A stretch of DNA of 44,702 nucleotides from NCBI GenBank assembly GCA_026988515.1, contig JALSLA010000065.1:1-44702 (forward strand), written 5' to 3'. Both the position numbers and the translations under genes were made by a program. Of the stretch, positions 3,156 through 42,284 are shown one piece after another. The notes beneath the pieces were generated by a model. The model was not told the DNA's origin, searched no databases, and saw nothing but the letters and a program-made list of their open reading frames with translations. The first letter of the stretch is position 1, and each line of letters begins with the position of its first letter. The stretch is from Helicobacteraceae bacterium (lineage in GTDB: Bacteria > Campylobacterota > Campylobacteria > Campylobacterales > Sulfurimonadaceae).

Positions 3156-4166
3156 CTATACTTTTGTAAGCAAGGTCTCAGCCAATGCCACAACCGATTC
3201 GGGTGCAATCTGCTTAATCGAGAAATCTTCTTTGTTAAGCCGGTACGGATCCACCGTAGAGGGTGACTTCAGTACTTTGTTGATGGGCGTAACATGCACA
3301 CGCGAGACGGGCGTGGGTCCAAAGAGCGTAATACTGGGTCGGTTCATTGCCCATGCCATGTGTGTGGGACCCGTATCGTTGCCTATTAGCAGATCACACC
3401 GCGCAATCAGTGCTTTTAACGCATTGAGATTGAGCGGAGGCAAGATGGTTGCCTGTTGTGCGTGTGCGGCAATCCACCCTGCACGCTCTTGCTCTTCTTG
3501 ACCGCCCCATGCAATCACAATTTTCGCGTCAGGGTATTTTACATGTAAATCGTCTGCCACGTTGACAAACAGCTCTTTGGGATAGTTACGGCTTGGCCAT
3601 GTTGAACCGATAATAAAAACAATATTCATGGCACCCAAGTAAGGCTCAAAAGCAAAATCGTCCTCATGAAAGAAAAGAAACGGCGCTTTGTTCAATGCCT
3701 CCTCATGAGTCACGTCAATGTGCAGTGCCGAGGCAACAACACCGATATTGCGGTCAATGGTATTGCGGTCGTAAGGAATATCGTACGCCTTACTATAAAA
3801 CAGTGATGCCACTGATTCTCGGGTACTGTTTTTATCAAAGCCATGCGTGTTGTTACCTATAAGGCGCGCCACGATAGCCGACTTTACAAGGCCCTGCATA
3901 TCAATAACAATGTCGTACGTTCCCAAATGCCGAAGTTTACGTACCAGTGCCACAAGATCGGAAATACTCCGACGTTTTTTCATGGCTTTAATTGCCACCG
4001 TATGCAACGTATGAATGTCGCTGTTATCTTCCAAAACTCCGGCAAAAGCCTCTTCACAGATCCAGTCGATGCGCGCGTCGGGATAGTGCTTTTTAATAAA
4101 CTGCAAGACAATGGCGCCATGAACAATATCACCCATGGCACTCAGTTTGACAATCGCAATCTTCAT
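3156..4166 (-). CDS. waaC: Lipopolysaccharide heptosyltransferase I
   Basis: A 336-residue GT9-family glycosyltransferase that adds the first L-glycero-D-manno-heptose from ADP-heptose to Kdo of the inner core, on the cytoplasmic side of the inner membrane. The N-terminal MKIAIVKLSAMGDIVH and the C-terminal GNDTGPTHMAWAMNRPSITL followed by FGPT are family signatures; the latter contacts the ADP part of the donor. Length is typical. The donor pathway genes hldE, gmhA and gmhB lie elsewhere in this window. It diverges from the YejM-like gene at 4236. A copy of TTTACATGTAAA inside the gene encodes Leu-His-Val. Confidence 0.92.
   Translation of the reverse strand: MKIAIVKLSAMGDIVHGAIVLQFIKKHYPDARIDWICEEAFAGVLEDNSDIHTLHTVAIKAMKKRRSISDLVALVRKLRHLGTYDIVIDMQGLVKSAIVARLIGNNTHGFDKNSTRESVASLFYSKAYDIPYDRNTIDRNIGVVASALHIDVTHEEALNKAPFLFFHEDDFAFEPYLGAMNIVFIIGSTWPSRNYPKELFVNVADDLHVKYPDAKIVIAWGGQEEQERAGWIAAHAQQATILPPLNLNALKALIARCDLLIGNDTGPTHMAWAMNRPSITLFGPTPVSRVHVTPINKVLKSPSTVDPYRLNKEDFSIKQIAPESVVALAETLLTKV
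3538..3549. repeat. TTTACATGTAAA palindrome inside waaC
   Basis: Perfect 12-bp palindrome; read on the minus strand it encodes Leu-His-Val (TTA CAT GTA). Confidence 0.85.
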
Positions 4167-4235
4167 ACCCTGCCTTGCGTCAAATTTTCACGCTATTTTA
4201 TCATTTTTTTTAGAAGGAGTCACTACAATACCCCA

Positions 4236-6080
4236 ATGAAACGTTTTTTCCCGAAACCATCACTCATGCCGTCACGACTGTGGCTCTATCTGAAATTCAA
4301 TCTGATTGTCAGCGCCTTGCTCTACATGCTCTTTATGACGCTCAATCCGAGTTATACGGTCGAGACATTTCTTTTTACTGTAGCCGCCTCAATCTCAAGC
4401 ATTGCATTGATCTATCTGATTTTAGCACTCATACTGTTGCCGTTTCTCTACCTGAAACGCACGGCACTCTACCTCGCTTTTATACTCGTTATCACATTGA
4501 ATCTGCTCATTTTAGCCGACTTTTTTATTTTTCGGCTCTATAAAATGCATATTAATCCGATGGTGCTCAACATCATCTTCTCACCGGCAGCACAAGAGAG
4601 TGTTCATATCGGTATGGCTCCCGTACTCGCTACTGTTGCTACCCTAACTATATTAATACTCTTAGAACTGTTACTGCTACAGAACATTGAACATCTTGAG
4701 ACGAAACGCGCTAGAGCACTCAATCGCCGCAGTCGCCTGCTGCTTATACTGCCGTTGCTGCTCATCGGTATTGGTGAAAAGCTTACCTTTGGCATTGCCT
4801 CGCTGCAAAACAATACCGCCATTGTTCAAAAAGCACGTGTCATTCCGCTCTATCAACCGCTGACCTTCAACCAGCTTGCCAAACGCTACGCCGGTTACGT
4901 ACCGCCTCAAAAACTTCCGACACTGGTGAAAGATTCGGCACTGCAATATCCACTCAAGCCACTCCGGTACCACACAGCACAACAGCATCCTCATATCTTT
5001 ATTTTCGGGTCCGATGCCACCCGCGCCGATATGCTTACGCAAGAAATTATGCCCAACATCTACCGGTTTGCCCGTGAATCACTACACTTTACCCGCCACT
5101 ACAGCGGCGGAAACACCACACGTTTTGGTCTCTTTTCGCTCTTTTACGGGCTCAATGCCACCTACTGGTTCGCTTTTTTAAACGAGCAAAAAGGCGCACT
5201 GCTCTTCGATGCCTTAAAACATCAAGGCTATGCCATCAACATTACCAACAGTACCGATCTGCGCTGGCCCGAGTTTCGTCAGACCGCTTTTGTCAATATT
5301 CCCGACACCATTCACGATGCCTTTGCAGGAGAGCCGTGGCAAAAAGATCGCCAAAGTACCGATGCTTTTAAACAATGGCTTGCCGAGCAGAATAGCTCAC
5401 AACCGCTCTTTTCCTTTGTCTTTTTCGATGCGCCGCACGGTCCCTACTCCTACCCCAAAGAGCAGGCACATTTTCTACCCGATAACGACGGTATCATTAA
5501 TTACATGACCCTCTCTCAAAACGATGCTCCCATACTGCTCAATATGTACAAAAATGCCAACCGTTACGTGGACGGACTGTTTCAAGAACTTCTCGACGCA
5601 CTCAAAGCCAAAGGCATTTACGATGATGCCATTATTATTATCACTTCCGATCACGGTGAAGAGTTTTATGAATTTGGAAATTTTGGACATAACAGCTCGT
5701 TTAGCGAGGCACAAACCAACAGTTTTTTAGTAGTCAAAGTTCCCGGTATGCCGCCGCAGCGTATTAATCGGCTCACCAGCCATGTCGATATTGTCCCGTT
5801 TATTATGAAGCGCATCGGAGTCGAGAACCCCGCAACAGACTACTCTAACGGTTTTGACCTGCTTCATGCAGATCGTAAAAGCCTCTCTATTTCCAACTGG
5901 AACAACTACGCTATTAAGACCGACAAGCATGTCGTTGTCTTTTCAAAAAAACCTTCGGCACTCTTGGCACCTGAGATTCGTAACAACAGCGATTATGCTC
6001 TCAACAACGAGGTGTCATTAGATACATTCAGCCCTTATATTTTGCAATCACTTCAAGAGAGTTCGCTCTTTTTTAAATAA
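4236..6080 (+). CDS. yejM: YejM/PbgA-like inner-membrane protein with sulfatase-fold domain
   Basis: A 614-residue protein with about five N-terminal membrane helices (residues ~15-200) and a periplasmic alkaline-phosphatase/sulfatase-fold domain. Visible motifs are FGSDATRADML (metal-binding Asp), SGGNTTRFGLFSLFYGL (candidate Thr nucleophile), and TSDHGEEFYEFGNFGH (Asp/His metal ligands). Topology, size and the MPNIYRFARESLHFTRHYSGG stretch fit E. coli YejM/PbgA, which senses periplasmic LPS and controls LpxC turnover. Whether that pathway exists here is unknown; it could instead be a transferase. I chose the ATG at 4236 after AAGGAG (spacing rather long, 16); the open frame extending to 3843 is antisense to waaC. 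Its 3' end overlaps dgkA by 8 bases, convergently. Confidence 0.75.
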   Translation: MKRFFPKPSLMPSRLWLYLKFNLIVSALLYMLFMTLNPSYTVETFLFTVAASISSIALIYLILALILLPFLYLKRTALYLAFILVITLNLLILADFFIFRLYKMHINPMVLNIIFSPAAQESVHIGMAPVLATVATLTILILLELLLLQNIEHLETKRARALNRRSRLLLILPLLLIGIGEKLTFGIASLQNNTAIVQKARVIPLYQPLTFNQLAKRYAGYVPPQKLPTLVKDSALQYPLKPLRYHTAQQHPHIFIFGSDATRADMLTQEIMPNIYRFARESLHFTRHYSGGNTTRFGLFSLFYGLNATYWFAFLNEQKGALLFDALKHQGYAINITNSTDLRWPEFRQTAFVNIPDTIHDAFAGEPWQKDRQSTDAFKQWLAEQNSSQPLFSFVFFDAPHGPYSYPKEQAHFLPDNDGIINYMTLSQNDAPILLNMYKNANRYVDGLFQELLDALKAKGIYDDAIIIITSDHGEEFYEFGNFGHNSSFSEAQTNSFLVVKVPGMPPQRINRLTSHVDIVPFIMKRIGVENPATDYSNGFDLLHADRKSLSISNWNNYAIKTDKHVVVFSKKPSALLAPEIRNNSDYALNNEVSLDTFSPYILQSLQESSLFFK

Positions 6081-6441: not shown

Positions 6442-6453
6442 AATAATCCTTCA

Positions 6454-7338: not shown

Positions 7339-7346
7339 GCCTACAT

Positions 7347-9251: not shown

Positions 9252-9272
9252 TCCCATCCTTTTAAAGGCGCA

Positions 9273-9285: not shown

Positions 9286-9308
9286 GTCATAAACGGTTTG
9301 GACAGTGA

Positions 9309-10580
9309 ATGGATTTTAAAAACATTTTTAGGTGGGATGCGTACTCCGATCAGCCTCATGTTATTCGCGACAACAATATTCGACGTGCCATTTACCGACA
9401 GACCTTCTACGATCAACTCAAACTCATCGCTACCAATCTGCTGATGTTTCCTTGGGTTTTATTACGTTTTGCGCTCTCGTTTTTAGAGACCAAAACTCCC
9501 TCTAGCCAAGGCTTTTTTGGTATGAGCATTACCTACGACAATGCACCCTTACAGACCAAGGCTCTGGTTGAAGAGCTGGGAGTATCCCGTCTGCTGATTC
9601 GCCTGCCTCTACACGATATGGACAACCTCGATGCCTATGTCGCTTTTATAGCGCAGTTTCAAAAGTACGATCTGCTCATTAACATCTTACAAGATCGTGA
9701 ACATGTGGAAGATCTCACCCTTCTACAACACGACCTTAAAAGAATTTTTGACGCACTGCTGCCGTTTACATGTAAATTTCAGATCGGCAATGCGATCAAC
9801 CGTAAAAAATGGGCATTTTTCAGCATGGACGAGTACCTCCGTTTTTATGAAGTGGCGCAGCGGCTCAAGCAAACGCAATACCCCTCACTTGAGCTTATCG
9901 GCTCTGGTGTTATTGATTTTGAGTATCACTACAGTATCCGTACGCTCTTTAATTTCTATCGTGTCCGTTACGATTGTTTCAGCGCACTGCTCTATGTCGA
10001 TCGCCGTGGCGCTCCCGAAAATACCCAAATGGGACTGAACTTACACAAAAAGATTCAACTGCTTTACAGTATTGTACGGCTCAGCCCTCAAAGCGCCAAC
10101 CGTCTCATCATTACTGAAACCAACTGGCCGCGCTCTCATACCGCACCCTACGCACCGACATCGGAACATGAGTGCGTTGACGATGCAACATACACGGCCT
10201 ACATGGTGCGCTACTACCTTATTGCTCTTGCTGCCGGAAGTGTCGAAAGCGTCTACTGGCATCAGCTTGTCGCGCCGGGCTACGGACTGGTTGATCATCG
10301 AAACGGCATTGAGAAATACTCTGCATTCAAAGCATTTCAGACGCTATTACATTTTGTAGAAAACAGCCGTGACATCAAACTGCACGTCTTTCAGGGCATC
10401 TACAAATTTACATGTAAAAAAGCGGCGCAAATCATTACGATACTCTGGTCCCAACAACACCATATACAAACTGTTCCGGATGATGCCGCCGTCTACTCCA
10501 TACTGCATGAACCGCTTCCAAACAAACAGGTCGTTATTGGCGAGCAGCTTGTCTATATTGTACAAAAGGATATCTCCTGA
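9309..10580 (+). CDS. Glycoside-hydrolase-like (clan GH-A/GH39-like) membrane-associated protein
   Basis: A 423-residue protein whose residues ~68-350 read like a (beta/alpha)8 glycosidase barrel. A clan GH-A nucleophile strand is seen as LIITETNWP with E270. The matching acid/base position normally reads NEP; here it is QIGNAINRKKW (N161-A162), so the acid/base Glu seems to be lost. A hydrophobic stretch at 36-60 may anchor it to the membrane; there is no cleavable signal. The last codon directly abuts the ATG of the LtaS-like gene at 10581. It may be a carbohydrate-binding pseudoenzyme or a transglycosylase with altered chemistry. The family call is from motifs only. It contains two TTTACATGTAAA copies. 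Confidence 0.55.
   Translation: MDFKNIFRWDAYSDQPHVIRDNNIRRAIYRQTFYDQLKLIATNLLMFPWVLLRFALSFLETKTPSSQGFFGMSITYDNAPLQTKALVEELGVSRLLIRLPLHDMDNLDAYVAFIAQFQKYDLLINILQDREHVEDLTLLQHDLKRIFDALLPFTCKFQIGNAINRKKWAFFSMDEYLRFYEVAQRLKQTQYPSLELIGSGVIDFEYHYSIRTLFNFYRVRYDCFSALLYVDRRGAPENTQMGLNLHKKIQLLYSIVRLSPQSANRLIITETNWPRSHTAPYAPTSEHECVDDATYTAYMVRYYLIALAAGSVESVYWHQLVAPGYGLVDHRNGIEKYSAFKAFQTLLHFVENSRDIKLHVFQGIYKFTCKKAAQIITILWSQQHHIQTVPDDAAVYSILHEPLPNKQVVIGEQLVYIVQKDIS
9765..9776. repeat. TTTACATGTAAA palindrome in the GH-like gene, copy 1
   Basis: Perfect 12-bp copy, read as Phe-Thr-Cys-Lys. Confidence 0.85.
10407..10418. repeat. TTTACATGTAAA palindrome in the GH-like gene, copy 2
   Basis: Perfect 12-bp copy, read as Phe-Thr-Cys-Lys, as in copy 1. 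Confidence 0.85.
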
Positions 10581-12563
10581 ATGTTAAGCCCAATCTATAA
10601 ACAGACCCTTGTTTTTACCTGCTGTTCTCTGGTGCTATTCGTACTGACACGACTGGGGATTCTGCTCTACTTTGGAGCCGATCAGCACCCCGAATTCTCC
10701 GAACTTTTGAACTTTTGGATTCTGGGACTGCGTTTCGATATGAAACTGATTGCAACCGTACTGCTGCTTGTTCTCTACCTTCCCGCACTGCTTTTTCTGG
10801 TGATGAAAAACGGTCGCTTTTTACATGTAACCCGTCTGCTTCTCTTTAGTGTTTTCCTCATATTTACTCTGTTTAGCGCCATTGAAACGGGTTACTACCT
10901 CTTTTTCGGTAACGGCATTGACCTGCTAATCTTTGGACTGATCGATGACGGTACTTCAGCGGTCATCAGCAGTATCTTGGGGGACCGGCGTCTTCTTGTT
11001 TTAAGCCTGTTGAGTCTGTTTTTTTTGACGCTACTGGCTTATGCCTACACTAAAGCATACCGCAACCGGCCCATTACCGTCCAGCACACCACCCTCAAAA
11101 AAGAGATGGCGCTACTACTGGCAAGCATCGTAATCTTGGCACTTTTGGCACGTGGCAGTCTCGACACGTTCCCTCTTTCACGCAAAGTGATGAATACCAA
11201 TGACAACGCTTTTTTAAACAGTCTTATTTTAAACCCTTTATGGCATTTTTACTATGCGGTACGTGACAAAAATGAAAACGACTTTTCACTCACCAGTGCC
11301 AAAATTCTCTCTATTGCCGGCGTCGATAATCTTGCCGAACTCCTTCAGCGTGCCCAATATGACGGCAACCGACCGCTTCAGCAGACAACACCGCACAACA
11401 CGCTGCTTGCCAAACATCCGCCCCATGTTATTTTTGTACTGCTGGAGGGGTGGTCGACCCATCCCGCACTGGAACACGGCGCGCATAATGACATCTTGGG
11501 CGCATTTGCCAAACATGCCCGTGAGGACTACTTTTTTCCGAGTTTTTTCTCGAATGCCTACGGCACCAACCCGACCATTGAAAACCTGTTGCTTAACAGT
11601 CCCATCAAAGGGATCTCCCAATCGCGGGCAACCAAGACCTCCTTTTCGCTCTCAAGCATTCTGCCGTTTAAGCGACAAGGTTATCATACCCTCTTTTTAA
11701 GCGGAGGCAGCATCTCCTGGCGCAACCATAACCAGTTTTGGCCGCGTCAAGGGTTTGATGCCTACATTGGGCGTTCCAGCATTGAAAAACATTACCATAT
11801 TGCCTGTGACAACCCATGGGGCGTCTACGATACCTACCTGTTTGAATATCTCAAAGAGCAGCTTCTTGAACGTGTTCAAACCAAACAGCCCTCCTTTACG
11901 TTCGTGCTGACAACCAACAACCACAGTCCTATCCGCCTGCCTGCAGACTTTCAATCGCCGCCGTTTGACCTTGAAGCGTTAGGATTTGACGCATCCGACA
12001 CACAGCATTACGATATGTTGCGCGGCTACCATTACCAAATTAACGCGTTTGGCATGTTTTTAGATTGGCTTAAATCATCACCGCTCAAAGATGATGTCAT
12101 TGTCGTGGCGACCGGCGATCATATTTTAAAAGGTTACAGCGACTATTTTGCCCCTACCATGCAGTACCTGAAATATGCCGTGCCGGCCTACTTTTACCTT
12201 CCCAAGCGTTACGACCGACTCTCTAAGGTTTCCAAAGAGATTGTCGGCTCTCACGATGACCTCTTCCCGACACTTTATGAATTGGCACTCTCTGGGGAGC
12301 ACTACTACAACTTCGGACAACCACTGATGTACAAACAACCCCCTACTGCCTTTGGCTGGAATGAACAGCAACGTTACCTGTTTCAAGAGGGTGTCGTCAC
12401 CCCCGACATGAAACTGCACCGCTTTCAGTCGAAAGAACGGAAATATTTACATGTAAATACCCTGCCGCCAACACCGTTTCAGTATGAACGTATTCAACAA
12501 AACCGCTATGAAATAGCACTCAAAAAATACCTGCTTGTTAAAGAGTATGAGCAGGAACACTAG
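10581..12563 (+). CDS. Second LtaS-like sulfatase-fold transferase
   Basis: A 660-residue protein with about five membrane helices (residues ~8-200) and a periplasmic catalytic domain. FVLLEGWST (metal-binding Glu), SNAYGTNPTIENLL (Thr nucleophile), FLSGGSISWRNHNQFW, TTNNHSPIRLP and VATGDHILKGY (Asp-His) follow the COG1368 order. It is clearly a paralogue rather than a copy of the 7347-9251 protein, because little sequence is shared outside the motifs. Its ATG abuts the TGA of the GH-like gene (TGAATG), so the two are co-translated and probably act together. Likely role: transfer of phosphoglycerol or phosphoethanolamine to a surface glycan. Two TACATGTA copies lie inside (10822, 12448). Confidence 0.78.
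   Translation: MLSPIYKQTLVFTCCSLVLFVLTRLGILLYFGADQHPEFSELLNFWILGLRFDMKLIATVLLLVLYLPALLFLVMKNGRFLHVTRLLLFSVFLIFTLFSAIETGYYLFFGNGIDLLIFGLIDDGTSAVISSILGDRRLLVLSLLSLFFLTLLAYAYTKAYRNRPITVQHTTLKKEMALLLASIVILALLARGSLDTFPLSRKVMNTNDNAFLNSLILNPLWHFYYAVRDKNENDFSLTSAKILSIAGVDNLAELLQRAQYDGNRPLQQTTPHNTLLAKHPPHVIFVLLEGWSTHPALEHGAHNDILGAFAKHAREDYFFPSFFSNAYGTNPTIENLLLNSPIKGISQSRATKTSFSLSSILPFKRQGYHTLFLSGGSISWRNHNQFWPRQGFDAYIGRSSIEKHYHIACDNPWGVYDTYLFEYLKEQLLERVQTKQPSFTFVLTTNNHSPIRLPADFQSPPFDLEALGFDASDTQHYDMLRGYHYQINAFGMFLDWLKSSPLKDDVIVVATGDHILKGYSDYFAPTMQYLKYAVPAYFYLPKRYDRLSKVSKEIVGSHDDLFPTLYELALSGEHYYNFGQPLMYKQPPTAFGWNEQQRYLFQEGVVTPDMKLHRFQSKERKYLHVNTLPPTPFQYERIQQNRYEIALKKYLLVKEYEQEH
12446..12457. repeat. TTTACATGTAAA palindrome in the second LtaS-like gene
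   Basis: Perfect 12-bp copy, read as Leu-His-Val-Asn context. A copy ending in C (TTTACATGTAAC, 10820-10831) lies earlier in the same gene, also as Leu-His-Val. Confidence 0.85.
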
Positions 12564-16039: not shown

Positions 16040-16618
16040 CTAAAATACAAACTTAAACCCAACAAATGCCGCACGGTTGAATTTGACATCGGCGGGATTG
16101 TAGTTTGTATCGATATAGCGGTATCCTAACGTAATGAGTCCGCGTTCAATCACCTCAATGTCAACATTGGCTTTCCATTCAAAATAACTGTCCGCATCAC
16201 TAAAACTCAATACCGAAGGTGCATAATAGATTTTTGAAGCGACATAGAGCGGGACAATGGTATTCAAAGGCAGGCGGTAACGCGCCTCCAAACCCAAAGG
16301 CAACGCAACAAAATCATACGCTCCTGCCGAACTGTAGTTGAGTTTAAACCCAATGCCAATCTGTAATTCCGGCATCTTCTGCAACGGTTTTTGCATCAGA
16401 TACGATATCTCGATGAGCTCATCGGCATCACCCGCTTTGTCGGCATAGATATAACGTCCGCCAATAAAGATGCTGTCAACATCGAGCTGGGAGTTAAACT
16501 GTCCCATATCAAACTTTAATTCGGCTTCAATATCTTCGTTGTTGATGTTGATCTCACCGGTATGCATGGCAAACGTAAGCGTGCTCGCCGCCAATAGTAT
16601 GAGTAGTTGTCTTAACAT
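16040..16618 (-). CDS. YfaZ-like outer-membrane protein
   Basis: A 192-residue protein with signal peptide (cleavage near TFA-MHT, residue ~17) and a barrel ending in the canonical terminal Phe (AAFVGFKFVF), recognised by the Bam complex. The opening ININNEDIEAELKFDMGQ, the internal FIGGRYIYADKAGD and the strand pattern match the YfaZ family, small porin-like proteins of unknown substrate. Its ATG overlaps the last 7 bases of hldE, so it is co-translated after hldE. That link to heptose synthesis is positional only. Confidence 0.75.
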   Translation of the reverse strand: MLRQLLILLAASTLTFAMHTGEININNEDIEAELKFDMGQFNSQLDVDSIFIGGRYIYADKAGDADELIEISYLMQKPLQKMPELQIGIGFKLNYSSAGAYDFVALPLGLEARYRLPLNTIVPLYVASKIYYAPSVLSFSDADSYFEWKANVDIEVIERGLITLGYRYIDTNYNPADVKFNRAAFVGFKFVF

Positions 16619-18051
16619 GAAATGTTTCCTTTAATTTTTTCTATGGTTGTCGTGGTGCTTTTTCCTTCAACGAAAGCAACCAGTTTTAGCTCCTGAGCAA
16701 ATTCGGTTCCAACAACCTCTTTTCCGGCATAATCACCCCCCTTGACCAAGGTATGCGGGGCAATCATCTTAATAAGCTCGTATGGTGTCTCTTCGGAAAA
16801 AATAACCACATAATCGACCGCTTCCAACGCTGCAAGCAGGTAGGCACGATCTTCTTGCGGGTTGACAGGACGTCCTGCTCCCTTCAGTGCCCGTACCGAA
16901 CGGTCTGCATTGAGTCCGACAATAAGAAGATCACCAAAGCTCTTTGCCTCTTGCAGATATTTTACATGTCCTACATGTAAAATATCAAAACAGCCGTTGG
17001 TAAATACAATACGTTCCCCGTTGGCTTTGGCACGCTGTACAATATGATGAATCTGTTCAACACTCTTAATATGTGTCTCGGAGTTACTGCGATGCAGACT
17101 TGAAGCATACATCTCTATCTCATCCATACTCGCCGTTGCCGACCCGACCTTGCCGACAACTACCGCCGCGGCATAGTTGGCAAAACTTGCCGCCGTATCA
17201 ATGGATACACCCGAAGCCAGCGCAAATGCCAAGGAGGCAATGACCGTGTCACCGGCGCCGGTAACATCATAAATCTCACGTGCTACGGTCGGAAAACGGC
17301 GCATGTTCGTATCGTAAAGAGCGATGCCCTCCTCTGAAAGCGTTACCATAGAGGTGTGCAGCTTACATGTAGATTTCATCTGCAACAGTGCTGCCTCAAG
17401 AGAGGCGTCATCAACAATATCAATGCCCGTTGCCAGTATCGCCTCTTTTTTATTAGGGGTGAGCAGGTAAGCACCTTCATACTTTCTAAAGTCACTCCCT
17501 TTTGGGTCAACGACCACTTTTTTTTCATGACTCTTGGCCAGTGCCAAGACACGTTGCATCAAGTACGGTGTAACCACCCCTTTGGCATAATCAGATATCA
17601 CAATAATATTGTACAACAAAATATCTGCTTCAATGACATCGCTTATCTGCTCTGCCAACACATCGGAAATAGGCTCCGTACTCTCTTGGTCGTAACGCAA
17701 CACCTGCTGATTCGAAGCAATAATACGACTTTTTTTACTGGTAATACGTCCCTGTTGACGCAACAATGCTTTCGTATCAATACCGGAAGATTGTAGCATT
17801 ACAGCCAGCTCTGCGCCGTTTGCATCGTCTCCAATCACTCCGGCCACACTCACACGCGAGCCTAAAGCAAGCAGGTTGTTTACAACATTGCCAGCACCGC
17901 CGAGAACCGTCGTCTCTTTACGGATGCCCACTACAGGGACCGGTGCTTCGGGTGAAATACGATCGCACCCGCCCCACAGATAATGGTCAATCATTAAATC
18001 ACCGATCACAAGAATATTCGGTTTATTGGCTCCGAAAATTTCAATCATCAT
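16612..18051 (-). CDS. hldE: Bifunctional heptose-7-phosphate kinase / heptose-1-phosphate adenylyltransferase
   Basis: A 479-residue fusion enzyme. Residues ~1-320 are a PfkB-type sugar kinase (GGAGNVVNNLLALG near the N terminus, catalytic DVTGAGDTVIA around 265) that makes heptose-1,7-bisphosphate. Residues ~335-479 are a nucleotidyltransferase (FTNGCFDILHVGHVKYLQ with its HxGH ATP-binding motif) that makes ADP-heptose after GmhB removes the 7-phosphate. Both active sites are intact and length is standard. Two adjacent ATGs (18051, 18048) are possible. The substrate for WaaC is thus made by products of this window, except the epimerase HldD, which is not here. The HxGH codons form a long palindrome. 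Confidence 0.95.
   Translation of the reverse strand: MMIEIFGANKPNILVIGDLMIDHYLWGGCDRISPEAPVPVVGIRKETTVLGGAGNVVNNLLALGSRVSVAGVIGDDANGAELAVMLQSSGIDTKALLRQQGRITSKKSRIIASNQQVLRYDQESTEPISDVLAEQISDVIEADILLYNIIVISDYAKGVVTPYLMQRVLALAKSHEKKVVVDPKGSDFRKYEGAYLLTPNKKEAILATGIDIVDDASLEAALLQMKSTCKLHTSMVTLSEEGIALYDTNMRRFPTVAREIYDVTGAGDTVIASLAFALASGVSIDTAASFANYAAAVVVGKVGSATASMDEIEMYASSLHRSNSETHIKSVEQIHHIVQRAKANGERIVFTNGCFDILHVGHVKYLQEAKSFGDLLIVGLNADRSVRALKGAGRPVNPQEDRAYLLAALEAVDYVVIFSEETPYELIKMIAPHTLVKGGDYAGKEVVGTEFAQELKLVAFVEGKSTTTTIEKIKGNISC
16956..16986. repeat. 31-nt perfect inverted repeat over the hldE HxGH codons
   Basis: Arms GATATTTTACATGT (16956-16969) and ACATGTAAAATATC (16973-16986) are exact reverse complements around CCT. 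It contains one full TACATGTA and one TACATGT. On the coding strand it specifies Asp-Ile-Leu-His-Val-Gly-His-Val-Lys-Tyr, the nucleotidyltransferase active site. Confidence 0.85.
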
Positions 18052-18759: not shown

Positions 18760-18771
18760 TTTACATGTAAT
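18760..18771. repeat. TTTACATGTAAT motif between ccoI and ccoS
   Basis: Intergenic copy in the 27-base gap. On the minus strand it runs ATTACATGTAAA and then directly into the AAGGA ribosome binding site of ccoS. Confidence 0.8.
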
Positions 18772-18777: not shown

Positions 18778-21168
18778 TTACTTGGTGAGACTCCAACGTA
18801 CCCGCATGGAATTTCCTACCACCAGCAGGGAGCTCAGCGACATGGAAATAGCAGCAATAAGTGGAATAATATAGCCTGCCATTGCTAAAGGGATTGTTAT
18901 GGCATTGTAGAGCAGTGAAATTCCTAAGTTCTGTTTAATAAGTTTAAACGTAGTTTGAGAAATAGCAAGAGCATCACTTAATGCCGTCAAATTATCACCT
19001 AAAAGCACCACGTCACTCACCTCAATAGCAATATCACTGCCGTTACCCATGGCAATGCCGATATTTGCATTGGCAAGTGCTAAAATATCATTGACTCCGT
19101 CACCGGCCATAATCACGACATCGCCGTTCTCTTGACGCTGCTGTACGTATGCTGCTTTAGCTTCGGGTGTCAACGAGTGCTGCAGATGCTCAATACCGAC
19201 AGTATCGGCAATATGTCGTGCATTCTCTTCATGGTCTCCGGTTAGCATGACCACTTCAATACCCCGACGTTTTATACTCTCAATTGCCTGTAACGAGTCC
19301 TCTTTGGTAACATCGCTTAACTCATAGATGGCACAAACCTTACCGTTTACCGCAAAATAGAAGAGTGAATGTTTACTGTGGACACTGGCATCGATACCAT
19401 GTTCTTGCATCAAGCGTGCATTGCCCCCGAGCAGCGTATTCCCTTCTACGCTTGCACCGATACCCCGCGCCTGCCACTGTGTTACCTCATGCAGACTCTG
19501 TGGCGTATCGACATCTAAATAACGACCCACCCCCTGAGCAATCGGGTGGTTGGAACTGCTCACCAAAGCAAACAGAAGCGCTTCGTCAAACGGTGCCAAG
19601 CGTGTGACGCGAATAACTTCGGGAATGCCTTTGGTAATGGTTCCGGTCTTATCCAAAACAATCACATTTGCTTTTGCCATGGTCTCCAGTTGTGCTGCCT
19701 CTTTAAATAAAATACCCCGCCGTGCGCCCAGACCCAAACCCACCAGTGTCGCTACCGGTGTTGCCAGAGCCAATGCACACGGACAGGCAATAATAATGAC
19801 TGAAATGCCCACCATAAACGATGTTTCAAAATCGTGAGGCCAAAACCACCAAAAGAGAAATGTGAACAAAGCAAGCACCAAAATCGTAGTCGAAAAATGT
19901 TCGGAAAGGCGATTTGCCATCTGTTCAATATGCGGTTTTTTACGCATCGCTTTTTCCAAAAGTGTCACCAAATTTGAAATGGTTGAATGGGCAAAATCTT
20001 TGGTAGTGCGGTATTGCAGCAGGGCATCAATAGAGGTGGTACCGCTGACTAGCGTATCACCGACACGCTTATAAACAGGTTCGCTCTCTCCCGTTAGACT
20101 TGATTCGTCAATACCTCCCTCCCCTTCAACGACTTCACCGTCAATAGCAATTTTCTCACCGGCTTTAAGCAGTACAATCGAGCCTACCTCTACATCGTTA
20201 ATATTGAGAGAACGTACGTCACCGTCTTGGATGACATTCACTTCCGAAGGTACCTGTTTGCTCATAATATCGAGCGTATCGGCGGCATTTTTTTTACTTA
20301 GTACTTCAAGAAATTTTCCAAACAGCACAAAGGTAATAATCATGGCTACCGAATCAAAATAGGCCTCACCCTCTTGGTTAAGCGTAATATAAATAGAGTA
20401 TATATACGTCAGCAATGCACCGGTGGCTACCAAAATATCCATATTGACCACACGGTTTTTCATGCCGTAATAGGCTCCTTTAAAAAAGACCCAGCCACTG
20501 TAAAACAGTACCGGTGTCGCCAATACCCACTCTGCAACATTTAAAATGGTCTTGACATCCTGCGTAATTCCGGTGAAATAACCGGCATACTGTGCCACCG
20601 CTACCCACATAATGTTCATGGAGGCAAATGTCGCTACCGCCATGCGAAGGTAGTAATCTTTACGTTGGCGATTTGCACTTAACTCCTGTGCACTGGGATC
20701 ATACGGAAAAGCATTGTAGCCGATAGCACGAATCATCTCAATAATGGCAGAGAGTTTTACGGTATGATCGGCCCAGGTAATGCGGGCTTTGTTATTGGTG
20801 TAATTAATGTGTGCTTCAATAACACCCTCCATTTTATGCAATGCTTTTTCATTTAACCAGACACATGCCGCACAGTGGATCCCCTCAATAATAAGTGAAA
20901 TCTCCTGAAACCCCTCCTCGTTGGTTGTCACATAGCGCTCGTAAAAGCTGGCAGAATTGAAGGTTTCGCTATCGTCATAGTGTGTCGTTTGCGGTGTGAG
21001 TTTGGTATTGGCGGCTTTTTCGTAAAAGCGTTCCAAGCCGCTCTCGTTAAGCAGATGAAAGACACCTTGGCACCCTTTGCAGCAAAAATAGTGCCCCGCA
21101 TCTTCAATCATTACCGATGCATCAAACTCTAAATGACAGTGATCACACTCAATCTTGGACAATTTCAA
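18778..21168 (-). CDS. ccoI: Copper-translocating P1B-type ATPase CcoI/FixI
   Basis: A 796-residue heavy-metal P-type ATPase. An N-terminal Cys-rich zinc-ribbon-like segment (CDHCHLEF, then CCKGCQGVFHLLNESGL) is the mark of the CcoI/FixI branch. It is followed by a metal-binding domain with CAAC (GIHCAACVWL), membrane helices, the transport motif CPCALALATP, phosphorylation site DKTGTITKG and hinge GDGVNDILALANANIG. CcoI exports copper for assembly of the CuB centre of cbb3 oxidase. It pairs with ccoS downstream. Its start overlaps the 3' end of the asparaginase-like gene by 20 bases, which implies translational coupling with the gmhA/gmhB run. Confidence 0.93.
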   Translation of the reverse strand: MKLSKIECDHCHLEFDASVMIEDAGHYFCCKGCQGVFHLLNESGLERFYEKAANTKLTPQTTHYDDSETFNSASFYERYVTTNEEGFQEISLIIEGIHCAACVWLNEKALHKMEGVIEAHINYTNNKARITWADHTVKLSAIIEMIRAIGYNAFPYDPSAQELSANRQRKDYYLRMAVATFASMNIMWVAVAQYAGYFTGITQDVKTILNVAEWVLATPVLFYSGWVFFKGAYYGMKNRVVNMDILVATGALLTYIYSIYITLNQEGEAYFDSVAMIITFVLFGKFLEVLSKKNAADTLDIMSKQVPSEVNVIQDGDVRSLNINDVEVGSIVLLKAGEKIAIDGEVVEGEGGIDESSLTGESEPVYKRVGDTLVSGTTSIDALLQYRTTKDFAHSTISNLVTLLEKAMRKKPHIEQMANRLSEHFSTTILVLALFTFLFWWFWPHDFETSFMVGISVIIIACPCALALATPVATLVGLGLGARRGILFKEAAQLETMAKANVIVLDKTGTITKGIPEVIRVTRLAPFDEALLFALVSSSNHPIAQGVGRYLDVDTPQSLHEVTQWQARGIGASVEGNTLLGGNARLMQEHGIDASVHSKHSLFYFAVNGKVCAIYELSDVTKEDSLQAIESIKRRGIEVVMLTGDHEENARHIADTVGIEHLQHSLTPEAKAAYVQQRQENGDVVIMAGDGVNDILALANANIGIAMGNGSDIAIEVSDVVLLGDNLTALSDALAISQTTFKLIKQNLGISLLYNAITIPLAMAGYIIPLIAAISMSLSSLLVVGNSMRVRWSLTK

Positions 21169-26962: not shown

Positions 26963-26974
26963 TTTACATGTAGA
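26963..26974. repeat. TTTACATGTAGA motif upstream of der
   Basis: Intergenic copy, 24-35 bases before the der ATG, in the gap between the lipoprotein operon's last gene and der. Confidence 0.75.
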
Positions 26975-28598: not shown

Positions 28599-29564
28599 TT
28601 ACAATCCTAAACTTTTAAAGATACCCTCATTGGTAACTTTCAATGCAAATTGTTGCACACAATCGTGATGGGATTGTGAAAAATCAATGCGTGATTTGCC
28701 TACAAAAATATAATCGCGCGATGCAACCGTCGCCGCATCGCCGTCACGGCAATTTACATGTAAATAACACTGCTCTATATAATACCCTAAGAGTTTCTCT
28801 TTGTTATACTTTGACGTTACAACAATGGTGCCGTCAGCACCTCTTTTGTCTATTGTGATACCGTGTTTCACAAGATTCTGATAGATAATTTCTTGAAACC
28901 CCCGACTTCGTGCATCGGCAACAATCTGTAGCCGTAGTGCGCTCTTGTGTGCCTCGTAACGATCCTCATACGTCTGAATAAAACGGCGGTATTGTGATGT
29001 GTCACGGTGCGCATCAATAGCATGCAACAGCGCAATATGTGCATTCAGGGCATTGGCATCGTCATGAAAACGCTGCAATTGAACAAATTGTTCCAACGAA
29101 CTGCGTGATGCCGCGTGTTCAAAACGGCGACGGTAGGCATCCAAACGCTCTTCAAGCCTTTGTTGTTCTTCTGCATAGAGTCTCTCGCGTTCAATATGCA
29201 CCAGCACATAAAGCCGGCCTTCAACCCACTGCTCTTTGTCAATATACACCGTATTAAAGTGCAATGTTGGGCTCTTTGTCGTGATGCGATGTTCTACTTC
29301 TTGCAGCGTCTGTTCATTCGCATTGAAGCGAATGGATTGATCCCGTTTGTCGTAACGACTCTCCAGCGTTGTGCTGATGGCATGCGCAATCTGAGAAAGC
29401 GCCATTGCTTTTGCCGACGCCAGATCAACACCTTCTCCCACGCCGTAGAGTATTGCAGAAGTATTATGCGGCGGTGTATGGTACCATGAGGCAACAGTGG
29501 GCTTTGAGGTACTGCACCCCGCCAAAAGAAGTAACAACAGAGCCGACAAAAAACGGTGTAGCAT
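28599..29564 (-). CDS. Lipoprotein with N-terminal LPP20-like domain
   Basis: A 321-residue lipoprotein with lipobox LAGC (Cys17). Residues ~27-125 form an LPP20/FlgP-like domain (WYHTPP ... ILYGVGEGVDLASAKAMALSQIAHAIS ... QWVEGRLYVLVHIER). A long charged helical segment (about 130-215, many Arg, Glu, His) looks like a coiled coil. The C-terminal third holds four Cys that could form disulfides in the periplasm (QCYLHVNCRDG and DCVQQF). It is first in the three-lipoprotein operon. The function is not known. Confidence 0.7.
   Translation of the reverse strand: MLHRFLSALLLLLLAGCSTSKPTVASWYHTPPHNTSAILYGVGEGVDLASAKAMALSQIAHAISTTLESRYDKRDQSIRFNANEQTLQEVEHRITTKSPTLHFNTVYIDKEQWVEGRLYVLVHIERERLYAEEQQRLEERLDAYRRRFEHAASRSSLEQFVQLQRFHDDANALNAHIALLHAIDAHRDTSQYRRFIQTYEDRYEAHKSALRLQIVADARSRGFQEIIYQNLVKHGITIDKRGADGTIVVTSKYNKEKLLGYYIEQCYLHVNCRDGDAATVASRDYIFVGKSRIDFSQSHHDCVQQFALKVTNEGIFKSLGL
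28753..28764. repeat. TTTACATGTAAA palindrome in the first lipoprotein gene
   Basis: Perfect 12-bp copy, read on the minus strand as Leu-His-Val within CYLHVNC. Confidence 0.85.
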
Positions 29565-29609: not shown

Positions 29610-30053
29610 ATGTACCATTATGACTATACACAATTTCGAAACGATTCGCGTACCCTTGCCCGCCTGTGCCTCCCTTTTCATGCGGACGCCATTGTCGGTA
29701 TTGCACGCGGCGGACTAATGCTCTCCCAGGCATTGGGCTATGCGCTTGATATCCGCAACATTCAAAGCGTACGGGTAGAAAGCTACGACGGTATGCACCA
29801 ACGAGTTCATTACAATTTACATGTAGATTGCGACCTGAGCCATGCAAAAAAAGTACTGATCGTCGATGATATTGTCGATAGCGGCCACACCCTTCGTGCG
29901 GTCTTGAATATTCTCGAAAAGCGCTATCCGGAAAATGTTTTTAAATCGGCGGCGCTCTTTTACAAATCCACGGCATGCCTGCAGAGTGATTTTTACCTTC
30001 ATGAAGCCACCGAGTGGATCGATTTTTTCTGGGAAAGCGATTTCAGCCTGTAG
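29610..30053 (+). CDS. Phosphoribosyltransferase (xanthine/guanine type)
   Basis: A 147-residue type I phosphoribosyltransferase for purine salvage. The PRPP loop KVLIVDDIVDSGHTL is intact, and IVGIARGGLMLSQALGYAL is the pyrophosphate loop. Overall length and the closing WIDFFWE fit Gpt-like xanthine phosphoribosyltransferases. There is no Shine-Dalgarno: the ATG begins only 7 bases after the -10 box TATAAT, so the mRNA probably starts at or next to the A of the ATG (leaderless). A TTTACATGTAGA copy at 29816 encodes Leu-His-Val. Base specificity is uncertain. Confidence 0.82.
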   Translation: MYHYDYTQFRNDSRTLARLCLPFHADAIVGIARGGLMLSQALGYALDIRNIQSVRVESYDGMHQRVHYNLHVDCDLSHAKKVLIVDDIVDSGHTLRAVLNILEKRYPENVFKSAALFYKSTACLQSDFYLHEATEWIDFFWESDFSL

Positions 30054-30113: not shown

Positions 30114-30125
30114 ATACATGTAGGA
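30114..30125. repeat. TATACATGTAGG motif overlapping the plsY ribosome binding site
   Basis: Intergenic TACATGTA at 30115-30122; its last base begins the AGGA ribosome binding site (30122-30125) of plsY. Confidence 0.75.
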
Positions 30126-30130: not shown

Positions 30131-30745
30131 ATGGATTTTTTATTGAACACCAATGTCCAGTTTTTTATTGCCGCATATCTCATTGGAGGTATTCCTTTCG
30201 GATTGTTGCTGGCAAAATATTTTGCCGGTGTCAACGTACAGGAGAGCGGTTCAAAAAGTATTGGTGCAACCAACGTATTGCGCGTCATTAAAACAAAAGA
30301 TCCCGCGTTAGCTAAAAAACTCGGTGCAGCCACCTTGGCACTCGATGCGCTCAAAGGGGTTCTCATCCTTTTAGCAGCACAGCTTGCGGGGGTCAGCGAG
30401 GCAACATTATGGGGTATCGGCGTACTCGCGGTACTGGGACACTGTTTTAGCCCGTACCTCGGATTTGAGGGAGGCAAAGGTATTGCCACGGGTATGGGAG
30501 TCTTTTTGGTAATGCTTCCGCTTGAAACAGTTATTGGTTTGGCGGTATGGGCAGTGAGCGTGAAGATGCTTAAAATCTCATCCATCGCATCGTTACTGGG
30601 ACTGAGTGCCTTGCTAACTGCCAGTTTTATAATTCACCCGCAGATGGCACATGCTCCTGTTGTTTTTATTGCTTTTATTCTCTTTTATAAGCATATTCCC
30701 AACATCATTCGTCTCATTCGAGGAGAAGAGGCACGTGTGGCATGA
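30131..30745 (+). CDS. plsY: Acyl-phosphate:glycerol-3-phosphate acyltransferase
   Basis: A 204-residue integral membrane enzyme making lysophosphatidic acid from acyl-phosphate, the first step of phospholipid synthesis. The three conserved loops are seen: GGIPFGLLLAKYFAGVNVQESGSKSIGATNVLR, LDALKGVL and LGHCFSPYLGFEGGKGIATGMG. About six to seven hydrophobic helices are present. AGGATTCTC-ATG is the start. The last codons overlap folB (ATGA), so the two are translationally coupled. Confidence 0.95.
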   Translation: MDFLLNTNVQFFIAAYLIGGIPFGLLLAKYFAGVNVQESGSKSIGATNVLRVIKTKDPALAKKLGAATLALDALKGVLILLAAQLAGVSEATLWGIGVLAVLGHCFSPYLGFEGGKGIATGMGVFLVMLPLETVIGLAVWAVSVKMLKISSIASLLGLSALLTASFIIHPQMAHAPVVFIAFILFYKHIPNIIRLIRGEEARVA

Positions 30746-33456: not shown

Positions 33457-33458
33457 TT

Positions 33459-38366: not shown

Positions 38367-38368
38367 CA

Positions 38369-39937: not shown

Positions 39938-39976
39938 CATGGTAAACTTTCAGCTCATTATATACGGAGCAACGTC

Positions 39977-40807
39977 ATGAAAATAGGTATTGTCGGACTC
40001 GGTCTGATGGGGGGTTCTTTGGCGCTTAGCCTCAAAAAACTTCCGTTTGTCCGCGAAATTGTCGGTTATGACCATAATGCGGAACATCAAAAAATTGCCC
40101 TGGAACGCCAACTGATCCACAACATTGTCGACTTTCAAAGCATTAAAGCGTGTGATGTTATCTTTTTGGCCATTCCGGTTAATGCAATTACTGCCCTCTT
40201 TAAAGATCTCACGGACCTTCCCAAAGAGACGACACTCATTGATCTCGGCGGTACAAAAGAGCGCATTTTAAAAGCCGTTCCGCTATCCATTCGTCGTAAC
40301 TTTGTTGCCGCGCATCCCATGGCGGGAACTGAGTACTACGGACCAAGCGCCGCCATTGAGAATCTGTTTAAAGATAAAATTGTCGTATTGTGTGACTTGG
40401 AGGAGAGTGGCGAGCATCAGCAAGAGGTTGCCGTACGGCTGTTTAGCGGTATTCACATGCAACTGCACTACATGCGATCCCATGACCATGACCGTCATGC
40501 CGCCTATATTAGCCATATGCCGCACATCATCTCCTTCTCTCTTGCCAATACCGTACTGTCGCAAGAAGAAAAAGAGAATATTTTACTGCTTGCCGCCGGT
40601 GGGTTTCGTTCCATGAGTCGTCTGGCAAAAAGTTCACCTCAAATGTGGGAAGATATTTTTCGGCAAAATAAAAACAATGTGCTCCATGCCATTGAACATT
40701 TTGAAAAAGAACTTACCGTACTCAAACGCTCCTTGAAAGATGATGACTGGGATACCCTGCACCAACGCATGAAAGCCGCAAACAAACTTCAAGATATCTT
40801 TTCATAA
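39977..40807 (+). CDS. tyrA: Prephenate dehydrogenase
   Basis: A 276-residue NAD(P)-dependent enzyme converting prephenate to hydroxyphenylpyruvate in tyrosine synthesis. KIGIVGLGLMGGSLALSLKK is the Rossmann loop, AAHPMAGTEYYGP the substrate motif with catalytic His, and YISHMPHIISFSLANT with AAGGFRSMSRLAKSSPQMWEDIF the dimer helices. It is monofunctional: no chorismate mutase domain. CGGAGCAACGTC-ATG gives its start. It converges with batD, with one base between the stop codons. Confidence 0.93.
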   Translation: MKIGIVGLGLMGGSLALSLKKLPFVREIVGYDHNAEHQKIALERQLIHNIVDFQSIKACDVIFLAIPVNAITALFKDLTDLPKETTLIDLGGTKERILKAVPLSIRRNFVAAHPMAGTEYYGPSAAIENLFKDKIVVLCDLEESGEHQQEVAVRLFSGIHMQLHYMRSHDHDRHAAYISHMPHIISFSLANTVLSQEEKENILLLAAGGFRSMSRLAKSSPQMWEDIFRQNKNNVLHAIEHFEKELTVLKRSLKDDDWDTLHQRMKAANKLQDIFS

Positions 40808-40819
40808 TTTACATGTATT
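40808..40819. repeat. TTTACATGTATT motif at the batD stop codon
   Basis: The minus-strand stop codon TAA of batD (40809-40811) is part of this copy, which ends the protein as Tyr-Met-stop. It fills the junction between the convergent tyrA and batD genes. Confidence 0.75.
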
Positions 40820-42284
40820 TTTTATACAGCGCTTTTAACTCTTTCGGATCAATGGAGACCGATCGACCCTCGTAGAGTTTGGCTTCAAGTTTAGAAGCCA
40901 TTGCTGCGGCATCAGGGTCATCTAAATGGTTCAACAAAATACCCAACATATCGCGCTCGTTTTTATAATGCATCGGTACCGCTGCTCTCTTGCGACGACG
41001 CAGCCAGATTCTCCACGGGAGCAACCCGAGCAATACGCCCAAGAACACACCCAAACCCAAACCCCATGTAAACGAACCGCCTGACGCCGTAGCCGGAGCA
41101 TCATGGTCTTGCACTTCTTGTGTTTGAGGCACCGAAGCACGTTGGATTTTTAACGGTTCGGGAGTGTTTTTTGGTGCGCTATTTTTTACATGTATTGTAA
41201 TAGGACGGGTCTGAATGGTCTTGGAGCGGTTGTGTTCCAGATCAAAATAACGTAGCGTAAACGGTGCAATCGTCACGTCGTGTGTGGGTACCAAAGCAAT
41301 ATTTTGGCTCCATACCCCTTTGTATTCACCATGCTCAATATACGCTTTTGTAGTCGGCTCTTCTTCAAAAACTCCCACACCGGTTATCTTTGGCTTGAAC
41401 CCTTGAATATCTTCAAAGTTACCGCTTCCTTTAATAGTCACCGTAACGTTTACAGCATCTGAAGCATTCACCTCTGTAGTATCCACCTCGGCATCAATCG
41501 TAAATGTTCCGACAATAGACAAGTTGTCCGGCAACGGCAACACCTCCATCTCCAGCTCATTGGAGAAATAGGTACGCCATTTCAGTGTGGCAAACCACTG
41601 TCCCCACGTATCTTGACGTTGGCTACGTGCCGCAATCTCGATACGCGCAGGTTTAATGGTATGGTAACCGCTTTTTTGCGGTGCAAGTACGTAACTCAGG
41701 CGCTGTACGGTGTAGCCGTCTTCTTCAAACTTACGCCCTTCAGACTCCTCTTTTATCCAAAAATTTTTCATTGGCGGCAGGGTAAACTTAGAGTCCACGG
41801 CATTGGCGCCGTGTTTCTGCTTAAAGATAACCGTTAACGTAAAGGGTTCGCCGACATAAACCCGTTTTTTATTGCTCTCAAGCTGCAAAATAAACCGACT
41901 GTTTTTCGTCACTTTGACGGGTGATACGGTAATGTCAATAGGCTGGGTCATCTCTTTGACTCCATCGACAAGAACCGCAATGGGTTCAATAGTGCATGAT
42001 TTTGTCGGTACAAACGAATACTCAAACGTCTGTTTTTTAGTAAAAACACCGTTAATGCCCTGTACGCTGGTGCTTGTCGATGTAGCGGTAATCTCTTCAC
42101 CGCAAATACTCGCAATATCAGGAGGAACAACCTTTTCACCTTCTGCGGTGATACCCAGCCGTACCGTTTCACCAATGGTAACCTTGTCGGTATCAACAAA
42201 GACGTTAAGTTTGGCATGCAGCATAGTGCCTGCCATTATACATGTAAAAATTATTTTACCAAGGTTTGTCATTATATGTTTCAT
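40809..42284 (-). CDS. batD: BatD-family periplasmic/membrane protein
   Basis: A 491-residue protein with signal peptide (to about MLHA, residue 24), a long beta-rich periplasmic region typical of BatD (LNVFVDTDKVTIGETVRLGI ... VYVGEPFTLTVIFKQ), and one membrane helix near residue 400 followed by a basic cytoplasmic stretch. Bat proteins are associated with aerotolerance in Bacteroides and with MoxR-type complexes. Its start overlaps the BatB-BatC gene by 29 bases. Two TACATGTA copies lie inside the gene (41187 and 42239), besides the one at its stop. Confidence 0.82.
   Translation of the reverse strand: MKHIMTNLGKIIFTCIMAGTMLHAKLNVFVDTDKVTIGETVRLGITAEGEKVVPPDIASICGEEITATSTSTSVQGINGVFTKKQTFEYSFVPTKSCTIEPIAVLVDGVKEMTQPIDITVSPVKVTKNSRFILQLESNKKRVYVGEPFTLTVIFKQKHGANAVDSKFTLPPMKNFWIKEESEGRKFEEDGYTVQRLSYVLAPQKSGYHTIKPARIEIAARSQRQDTWGQWFATLKWRTYFSNELEMEVLPLPDNLSIVGTFTIDAEVDTTEVNASDAVNVTVTIKGSGNFEDIQGFKPKITGVGVFEEEPTTKAYIEHGEYKGVWSQNIALVPTHDVTIAPFTLRYFDLEHNRSKTIQTRPITIHVKNSAPKNTPEPLKIQRASVPQTQEVQDHDAPATASGGSFTWGLGLGVFLGVLLGLLPWRIWLRRRKRAAVPMHYKNERDMLGILLNHLDDPDAAAMASKLEAKLYEGRSVSIDPKELKALYKKYM

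Follow-up and report, generated by a model that had tools for sequence, protein, structure and literature searches.

A highly iterated palindrome of Campylobacterota and its possible role as a self-DNA signal

The DNA examined here is a stretch of 44,702 nucleotides (the window) from contig JALSLA010000065.1 of the Helicobacteraceae bacterium assembly GCA_026988515.1. Scattered among its genes, which include those for glycosyltransferase-9, sulfatase-domain, P-type ATPase, and BatD-domain proteins, are 15 copies of the palindrome TACATGTA (Table 1). Seven of these copies extend to the 10-mer TTACATGTAA and five to the 12-mer TTTACATGTAAA. Dinucleotide shuffles produce a mean of 0.60 copies of the 8-mer and a maximum of 2, and a third-order Markov model predicts 0.33, 0.03, and 0.005 copies of the 8-, 10-, and 12-mer, compared with the 15, 7, and 5 observed. 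The initial annotation of this DNA had located all 15 copies to the exact base, and its counts of the longer forms are matched on recounting. The excess that it reported is real but was underrated, because its hand estimate of about one expected 8-mer lies above the computed 0.3 to 0.6. As it had also claimed, 12 of the 15 copies lie inside open reading frames (ORFs), where every one of the three codon phases is used.

Table 1. Copies of the palindrome in the window and the genes in or beside which they lie
Sequence	Position	Context	Gene coordinates (strand)
TTTACATGTAAA	3538..3549	glycosyltransferase-9 gene	3156-4166 (-)
TTTACATGTAAA	9765..9776	423-aa ORF, no Pfam match	9309-10580 (+)
TTTACATGTAAA	10407..10418	423-aa ORF, no Pfam match	9309-10580 (+)
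TACATGTA	10822..10829	sulfatase-domain gene	10581-12563 (+)
TTTACATGTAAA	12446..12457	sulfatase-domain gene	10581-12563 (+)
TACATGTA	16972..16979	PfkB/cytidylyltransferase gene	16612-18051 (-)
TACATGTA	17364..17371	PfkB/cytidylyltransferase gene	16612-18051 (-)
TACATGTA	18762..18769	intergenic, just past 3' end of P-type ATPase gene	18778-21168 (-)
TACATGTA	26965..26972	intergenic, between EngA/Der-like GTPase and LPP20-like lipoprotein genes	
TTTACATGTAAA	28753..28764	321-aa ORF, no Pfam match	28599-29564 (-)
TACATGTA	29818..29825	phosphoribosyltransferase-domain gene	29610-30053 (+)
TACATGTA	30115..30122	intergenic, 8 bases ahead of ORF	30131-30745 (+)
TACATGTA	40810..40817	overlaps 3' end of BatD-domain gene	40809-42284 (-)
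TACATGTA	41187..41194	BatD-domain gene	40809-42284 (-)
TACATGTA	42239..42246	BatD-domain gene, near 5' end	40809-42284 (-)

The genome to which the window belongs (G000; 1.99 Mb in 97 contigs) holds 675 copies of TACATGTA versus 29 of the reversed word, which served as a control. This corresponds to about 340 copies per Mb, and the highest density among carrier genomes is about 630. A genome-wide count near the Markov expectation had been named in advance as evidence against a true signal, and this is not what was found. In a 354-kb sample of G000, composed of 20 stretches (L016-L035) and the window, 117 copies are present versus 3.9 expected, which makes TACATGTA the highest-scoring of all 8-mers. 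One-base variants in this sample are at or below the order-2 expectation at each position, the highest being 4 versus 3.9. Among palindromic 8-mers, TACATGTA scores highest in the samples from all six carriers evaluated in this way (G000, G005, G007, G055, G068, and G135). The earlier proposal that the DNA rather than the protein is selected is also supported. Usage of Leu-His-Val or Phe-Thr-Cys peptides does not explain the excess, since 33 of the 117 copies in the sample fall at least partly outside ORFs, compared with only 9.5% of the sampled sequence.

The core of the element is constant, and its flanks vary by genus. Written toward the core, the flanks are AATT in G000, CCT in G007, CCTT in G055, and CT in G068 (the last from 12 sites only), and the flank signal is small beyond about six bases outside the core. 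In G135 the form is ACATGTA with one outer base free, as 168 of 201 ACATGT sequences have an A after or a T before them. One-base deviants at the outer bases show no concentration in G000, and the 7-base ACATGTA is common in G135. Occurrences of ACATGT that lack both TA flanks are not in excess in G000 (49 of 166 copies, with about 77 expected in all), and thus CATG methylation alone does not explain the 8-base word.

Placement was evaluated in three genomes (G000, G055, and G135), using ORFs called by length only. Between 59% and 89% of copies lie within ORFs, and they occupy all three codon phases. An intergenic excess of 3- to 4-fold is found in two of the three; in G055, 84 of 207 copies are not wholly within an ORF (12% of the sequence is non-ORF), and G135 has no such excess (8 of 74 copies versus 10% non-ORF sequence). 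Counts per piece of at least 18 kb and the lengths of gaps fit random placement in all three genomes. Neither regular spacing nor clustering was found, and the weight that the initial annotation had placed on long copy-free stretches is not borne out. Likewise, counts per 20-kb bin of the G055 chromosome fit a uniform Poisson distribution without domain bias. Chromosome-domain sites of the matS, Noc, and SlmA type number a few tens of copies in one chromosome region, and the 675 copies in G000 and up to 1,768 in other genomes do not conform to this pattern.

Genomes were considered carriers if they hold at least 190 copies, a threshold of our own choosing. By this measure, 37 of 228 genomes from the family of the window are carriers, nine have 90-189 copies, and 182 have fewer. 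We infer that this family is Sulfurimonadaceae, that its genus g2 is Sulfurimonas, and that a second family rich in carriers, f20, is that of Sulfurospirillum. Carriers include 4 of 4 genomes in the genus of the window, 2 of 2 in g3, and 2 of 2 in g5; g16 has 7 carriers among 8 genomes, and g2 has 22 among 135. A phylum-wide sample of 397 genomes contains 30 carriers. The window's family accounts for 8 of these (from 51 genomes) and f20 for 20 (from 22). The remaining two, from 324 genomes outside both families, belong to f11 and have 1,480 and 246 copies. Maxima are 1,768 copies in the family of the window (G007, 2.9 Mb) and 1,727 in f20; G024 has 1,253 copies in 2.0 Mb. The trait is patchy, such that several lineages carry it and close relatives do not. 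The f11 genome with 1,480 copies (G536) belongs to a family that is mostly at background, and it encodes a divergent (39%) relative of the methyltransferase described below. The only other raised counts in f11, 91 and 246, occur in genus g75.

Evidence for upkeep of the palindrome comes from three species pairs at 77-81% nucleotide identity, compared in regions around the methyltransferase. The partner has the identical word at 15 of 21 aligned sites (4 of 5, 3 of 4, and 8 of 12), or 30 of 39 when counted both ways, against a background of 15-20% for random 8-mers and 16% (237 of 1,478) for words made of the same letters (anagrams). Five further sites in G005 lay in unaligned DNA, and the G055/G428 pair (2 of 2 sites, 94% identical) was kept out of the 21. 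Selection or drive, not composition, keeps TACATGTA, and both the signal and its upkeep count as shown.

The fate of the palindrome when copies become fewer can be followed through the number of one-base variants relative to the reversed word (the variant ratio). This ratio is 0.63-0.82 in 13 low-count genomes and 0.61-0.73 in the tested g3 and g5 carriers together with six of genus g37, among them five full carriers at 0.61-0.68 and G459 at 0.71. It is raised in three g37 genomes with fewer copies, namely G548 (1.05, 671 copies), G407 (0.97, 342 copies), and G373 (0.93, 109 copies). Such extra variants in the fewer-copy Sulfurospirillum genomes are as expected if perfect copies mutate away after upkeep is lost. 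Seven other intermediate genomes (91-379 copies) have ratios of 0.82-1.14. Carriers in g2 and g16, where the 7-base form occurs, range from 0.69 to 1.12, which leaves g37 as the only genus in which the test is clean. A separate g37 genome, G431 (657 copies), has a ratio of 1.62, above all others tested, and it possibly uses another dialect. Depletion of one-base variants was also considered as a general signature. The reversed-word control gives 0.39 in G000 and G001, and Markov orders 2, 3, and 4 give 0.53, 0.86, and 1.14. Depletion is not claimed because these Markov values for G000 vary and the word has no extreme rank among the 256 palindromes.

A DNA methyltransferase is the gene most clearly linked to the palindrome. 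Among ten carriers searched, PF02086 is found in nine and PF01555 in five, and most of the PF02086 proteins fall in one group. The G000 member of this group is encoded on contig C24, where its neighbors are genes for an exonuclease VII large subunit on one side and a cytochrome-like protein on the other. It matches the MTase_II and orphan-methyltransferase profiles of PADLOC, and has no solved relative by sequence. When presence is defined by E < 1e-75 (37 of 68 genomes with any match), 22 of the 37 carriers in the family encode the enzyme, compared with 15 of the remaining 191 genomes (Fisher 1e-11). For g2 alone, the figures are 12 of 22 carriers and 10 of 113 others (Fisher 4e-6). Both tests ignore phylogeny, and the nine family genomes with 90-189 copies were grouped as non-carriers. 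Ten of the 15 g37 genomes encode a close version (62-100% identity), and these same ten have the highest copy counts (1,223-1,727); the five that lack it have 1,201, 671, 657, 342, and 109. PF02384, another adenine methyltransferase family, was rejected as a factor shared by carriers that lack the linked enzyme; it has matches in eight genomes, and the protein from carrier G131 has relatives only about 22-23% identical among the others. This sole PF02384 match in G131 (L293) is a PglX-like frame with an internal stop, which in our reading suggests a broken defense locus.

A tree of the linked methyltransferase was built from 63 sequences with loci, using a midpoint root and with long branches flagged; a 64th, very divergent sequence was omitted. 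The g3 plus g5, g37, and window's-genus lineages are all high-count (16 of 16) and fall outside a group of 47, although the branch separating the window's genus from this group has a support of only 91/70. All 25 of the low-count rows fall within the group of 47, where they are interspersed with carriers. Two near-identical methyltransferases, in L134 (G164) and L193 (G418), come from hosts in different families, both rich in the palindrome (247 and 1,110 copies), and reflect a recent transfer. The gene itself is not generally loaded with sites, as 57 of 64 copies have none, including ten chromosomal copies from Sulfurospirillum; the remainder comprise a G055 plasmid copy with four, four g3 or g5 copies with two to three, and two others with one.

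Gene neighborhoods place several copies of the enzyme gene in a solo position. In g2 and g16, it lies between dxr and tsaD in 9 of the 11 neighborhoods drawn that hold it (L165-L167, L169-L171, L175, L177, and L178). None of 18 flanking ORFs from one carrier each of g1, g3, g5, g16, and g37 matches a restriction-enzyme profile, although two match other defense models weakly. In G000, four flanking ORFs have no such restriction-enzyme match. With its PF02086 domain and the MTase_II match in G000, the enzyme resembles solo D12/alpha-class adenine methyltransferases of the CtsM type. Homologs at 45-55% identity are present in 27 of 27 sampled genomes of g44, taken for Helicobacter, and more distant ones occur in many sampled f11 genomes, mostly at 32-37% identity where listed; none of these bears the name Cj0208 (CtsM). 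The available text on H. pylori hp1208 (PMC3936762) describes an alpha-class enzyme that methylates CATG. Judged by this kinship, the linked enzyme is probably a solo adenine methyltransferase of the CATG family, and CATG specificity in the carriers is best treated as a lead rather than a result.

Overall, the methyltransferase is strongly associated with TACATGTA but is neither necessary nor sufficient. It was rejected as sole cause given the existence of low-count and non-Campylobacterota bearers and of carriers that lack it. The suggestion of a methylase target in the initial annotation has thereby gained a statistical association and met clear exceptions, and its function is not proven.

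Our tentatively preferred explanation is that TACATGTA is an actively maintained, highly iterated palindrome that might mark DNA as self. In such a system, a sequence-strict reader would recognize the word, which would probably be adenine-methylated wherever the solo CATG-family methyltransferase is present. DNA carrying the word would then be favored in uptake or recombination, and this drive might add copies at random wherever they are tolerated and return mutated ones to the exact word. The constancy of the core and the lack of near-miss excess in g3, g5, and full g37 carriers point to an exact, enzyme-like reader. They fit less well with a protein that binds in a graded manner or with uptake sequences of the classical type. 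A bolder version of this idea, which must be regarded as doubtful, is that several lineages of environmental Campylobacterota, in more than one family, use a methylation-written palindromic self-DNA tag, consisting of an exact 8-base word with flank dialects. Biased uptake or biased recombination would drive this tag through the genome, and it would disappear step by step after its writer is lost.

A precedent exists within the phylum. Campylobacter jejuni takes up only DNA methylated at the palindromic site RAATTY by CtsM (PMC10046745). With this precedent for a methylated palindrome as self-mark, a maintained self-DNA signal, often methylated, is favored here, and the analogy of the methyltransferase-written mark is a proposed one. 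Unlike TACATGTA, RAATTY is short, degenerate, and very frequent, with a count of 27,280 in a methylome table (PMC4889913). The uptake sequences (DUS and USS) of Neisseriaceae and Pasteurellaceae are also over-represented and dispersed, and the H. influenzae form has a fixed core with less conserved flanks, according to the sections available from PMC1939737. The same combination of an over-represented short word, a fixed core, and weaker flanks is found for TACATGTA, the core of which is palindromic, unlike DUS and USS. DUS have genus dialects. The M.HpyAI/CATG methyltransferases (hp1208; PMC3936762, in part), of the alpha or D12 class, are the probable family of the linked enzyme, and members of this family are widespread without any excess of TACATGTA.

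Various observations weigh against a self-DNA signal. The single contig of G131 carries 737 copies at a variant ratio of 0.72 and gives no match to PF02086, PF01555, or the linked family, and neither G459 (1,201 copies) nor G391 (1,124 copies) has a methyltransferase match. Conversely, 15 genomes from the family of the window encode the enzyme at low copy counts. The 80 top-ranked named loci with the methyltransferase family, grouped by title, include 51 from outside Campylobacterota; these span 905 kb and contain 3 copies of TACATGTA, compared with 15 for the control word. No copy is present in 17 of the 27 loci from Campylobacterota. The Fisher tests neglect phylogeny. On the second contig of G055 (a plasmid; L045, 20 kb), four of six copies are inside the methyltransferase gene at 1692-2600. 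One-mismatch forms of classical uptake sequences are over-represented, judging from the portion of PMC1939737 consulted, unlike those of TACATGTA in tested g3, g5, and full g37 carriers, and several g2 and g16 carriers do seem to have a near-miss excess (up to 1.12), which would restrict a strict reader to some genera. ComEC, with its main G000 copy on contig C67, occurs in 55 of 55 genomes; this is in keeping with an uptake route, yet it does not separate carriers from other genomes, and the competence gene was rejected as a discriminator.

If DNA bearing the palindrome is indeed preferred, newly arrived mobile DNA would be expected to lack copies, and weak evidence for this exists. The poorest of 21 bins from G055 (L077) has two copies, both in its first 3.2 kb, and its last 16.9 kb has none. 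From about 12 kb onward, the copy-free part encodes FtsK/SpoIIIE-type, phage-replication-like, and integrase proteins. However, the point concerns one of 21 bins, and genes of core metabolism lie in the copy-free stretch as well.

Among known systems, the closest parallel is with highly iterated palindromes (HIPs) such as HIP1, which are a long-standing puzzle known from cyanobacteria in the literature consulted. The HIP1 likeness noted in the initial annotation is supported with regard to a dispersed palindrome, selection at the DNA level, and a methyltransferase link. In the sections available from Elhai (2015, PMC4390886), HIPs likewise top the 8-mers, have flanks that extend the core, are linked to DNA methyltransferases, and have alternate words that occur sporadically among relatives; one palindrome far above the others is also what the six carrier samples display. 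HIP cores are there given as 50% GC for TCGATCGA and 75-100% for the others, compared with 25% for TACATGTA, and HIP densities as around 500-2,500 copies per Mb, which G000 does not reach and some carriers, such as G007 and G024, do. In its broad sense the HIP concept accommodates TACATGTA, but the word lacks the high GC content and, in G000, the density. Further differences are the phylum, the lack of MutL at cut-off for the proposed mechanism, and an apparent stepwise decay within one genus.

Searches of the open-license literature, by letters and by phenomenon, retrieved, among the papers listed, no description of TACATGTA as a genome-wide bacterial signal, in agreement with the earlier statement that none was known for Campylobacterota. 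The 10-mer appears only as part of PCR primers in the text available from a Listeria paper (PMC7881616), and the 8-mer also occurs in the accessible text of papers on the oomycete Phytophthora. Campylobacterota thus provide a second, apparently independent HIP case outside the cyanobacteria. Because many closely related species differ in whether they carry the word, intermediates exist, and MutL is not detectable, the competing explanations become testable. For environmental genera, Sulfurospirillum among them, the predictions are TACATGTA methylation, uptake bias, and decay of the word once it is no longer maintained. If true, a self-DNA tag would bring HIPs, uptake sequences, and the CtsM system under a single mechanism, and it would give the unsolved HIP1 a model that is open to genetics.

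Of the other explanations, a binding site for an abundant chromosome-organizing or nucleoid-associated protein with strict recognition, to which the methyltransferase is linked only indirectly or by modulating binding, is rather unlikely. A palindrome suits a dimer, and the graded AT- or C/T-rich flanks around a fixed core, the even spread over sampled G055 chromosome bins, the conservation between species, and the persistence in G131 without the methyltransferase would all be consistent with such a site. However, graded sites differ from TACATGTA in the tested g3, g5, and full g37 carriers, where no excess of one-base variants is present. Copies that number in the hundreds, are randomly spaced, and favor no domain of the chromosome also disfavor this role, and no candidate protein was identified.

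It is likewise unlikely that the palindrome is a methylated regulatory or cell-cycle mark, which the methyltransferase (probably of the CATG family) would write and which would be read in gene regulation or replication. The association with this enzyme, its MTase_II and orphan-methyltransferase profile matches, the several copies of the gene that stand solo, and CATG methylation by H. pylori hp1208 (PMC3936762, available text) argue for this role. Yet most copies are in ORFs and in all three frames, G000 has no surplus of ACATGT lacking both TA flanks, and there are exceptions such as G131. An operator, as had been suggested, is unlikely given this share within ORFs (59-89% in three genomes) and the random spacing, and none of the three roles initially offered as alternatives (methylase target, nucleoid-protein site, or operator) is proven.

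Still less probable is a HIP1-like by-product of methylation-dependent mismatch repair, in which hemimethylated sites steer strand choice and mutations that create the palindrome are kept. The top-ranking octamer, the linked methyltransferase, and the patchy distribution are as in HIP1, and copies are maintained. The model requires MutS/MutL-directed repair, as set out in the portions available from Elhai (PMC4390886), but a profile search for MutL (TIGR00585) yields matches at cut-off in 0 of 55 genomes versus 11 of 14 control genomes. Thirty of the 55 have only weak sub-threshold matches, most of them short, and spacing is random rather than evened out. Because MutL at cut-off is missing from all 55 genomes, the published mismatch-repair model of HIP1 does not fit, and for the carrier bacteria here this argues against that model in its detailed form.

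There is very little likelihood that TACATGTA is a restriction-modification or defense site that persists owing to the protection of self DNA at these positions. A type II restriction enzyme (REase_II, E 1.3e-206) adjoins the methyltransferase at the dxr-tsaD site of the g2 genome G121, and G066 and G178 have a common large ORF beside theirs, with an ATPase domain in G066. Restriction sites are nevertheless expected to be avoided rather than accumulated, according to the text accessible in PMC4687349, and the flanking ORFs tested in one carrier each of g1, g3, g5, g16, and g37 match no restriction-enzyme profile. Finally, a compositional or codon artifact, for which nothing more than the recurring Leu-His-Val reading speaks, is refuted by the genomic counts versus the reversed word, a Markov expectation about 30 times too low, the intergenic excess in two of three genomes, and close relatives that sit at background.

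Several minor observations accompany these results. At 2488-2772, the window has a 118-residue open frame with a weak ComEC-like match (E 1.1e-4), which is below the cut-off. A scan of viral contigs with a 14-mer gave at least 120 stretches. In the G000 sample, CCAAAGAG and overlapping words are over-represented (100 versus 25, both strands), and TCCGGA is doubled (84 versus 38). In the G055 sample (L044 and L069-L088), the 9-mers CTGACCCGA and TACTGACCC occur 13-14 times versus <1 expected, and these perhaps represent a dispersed repeat.

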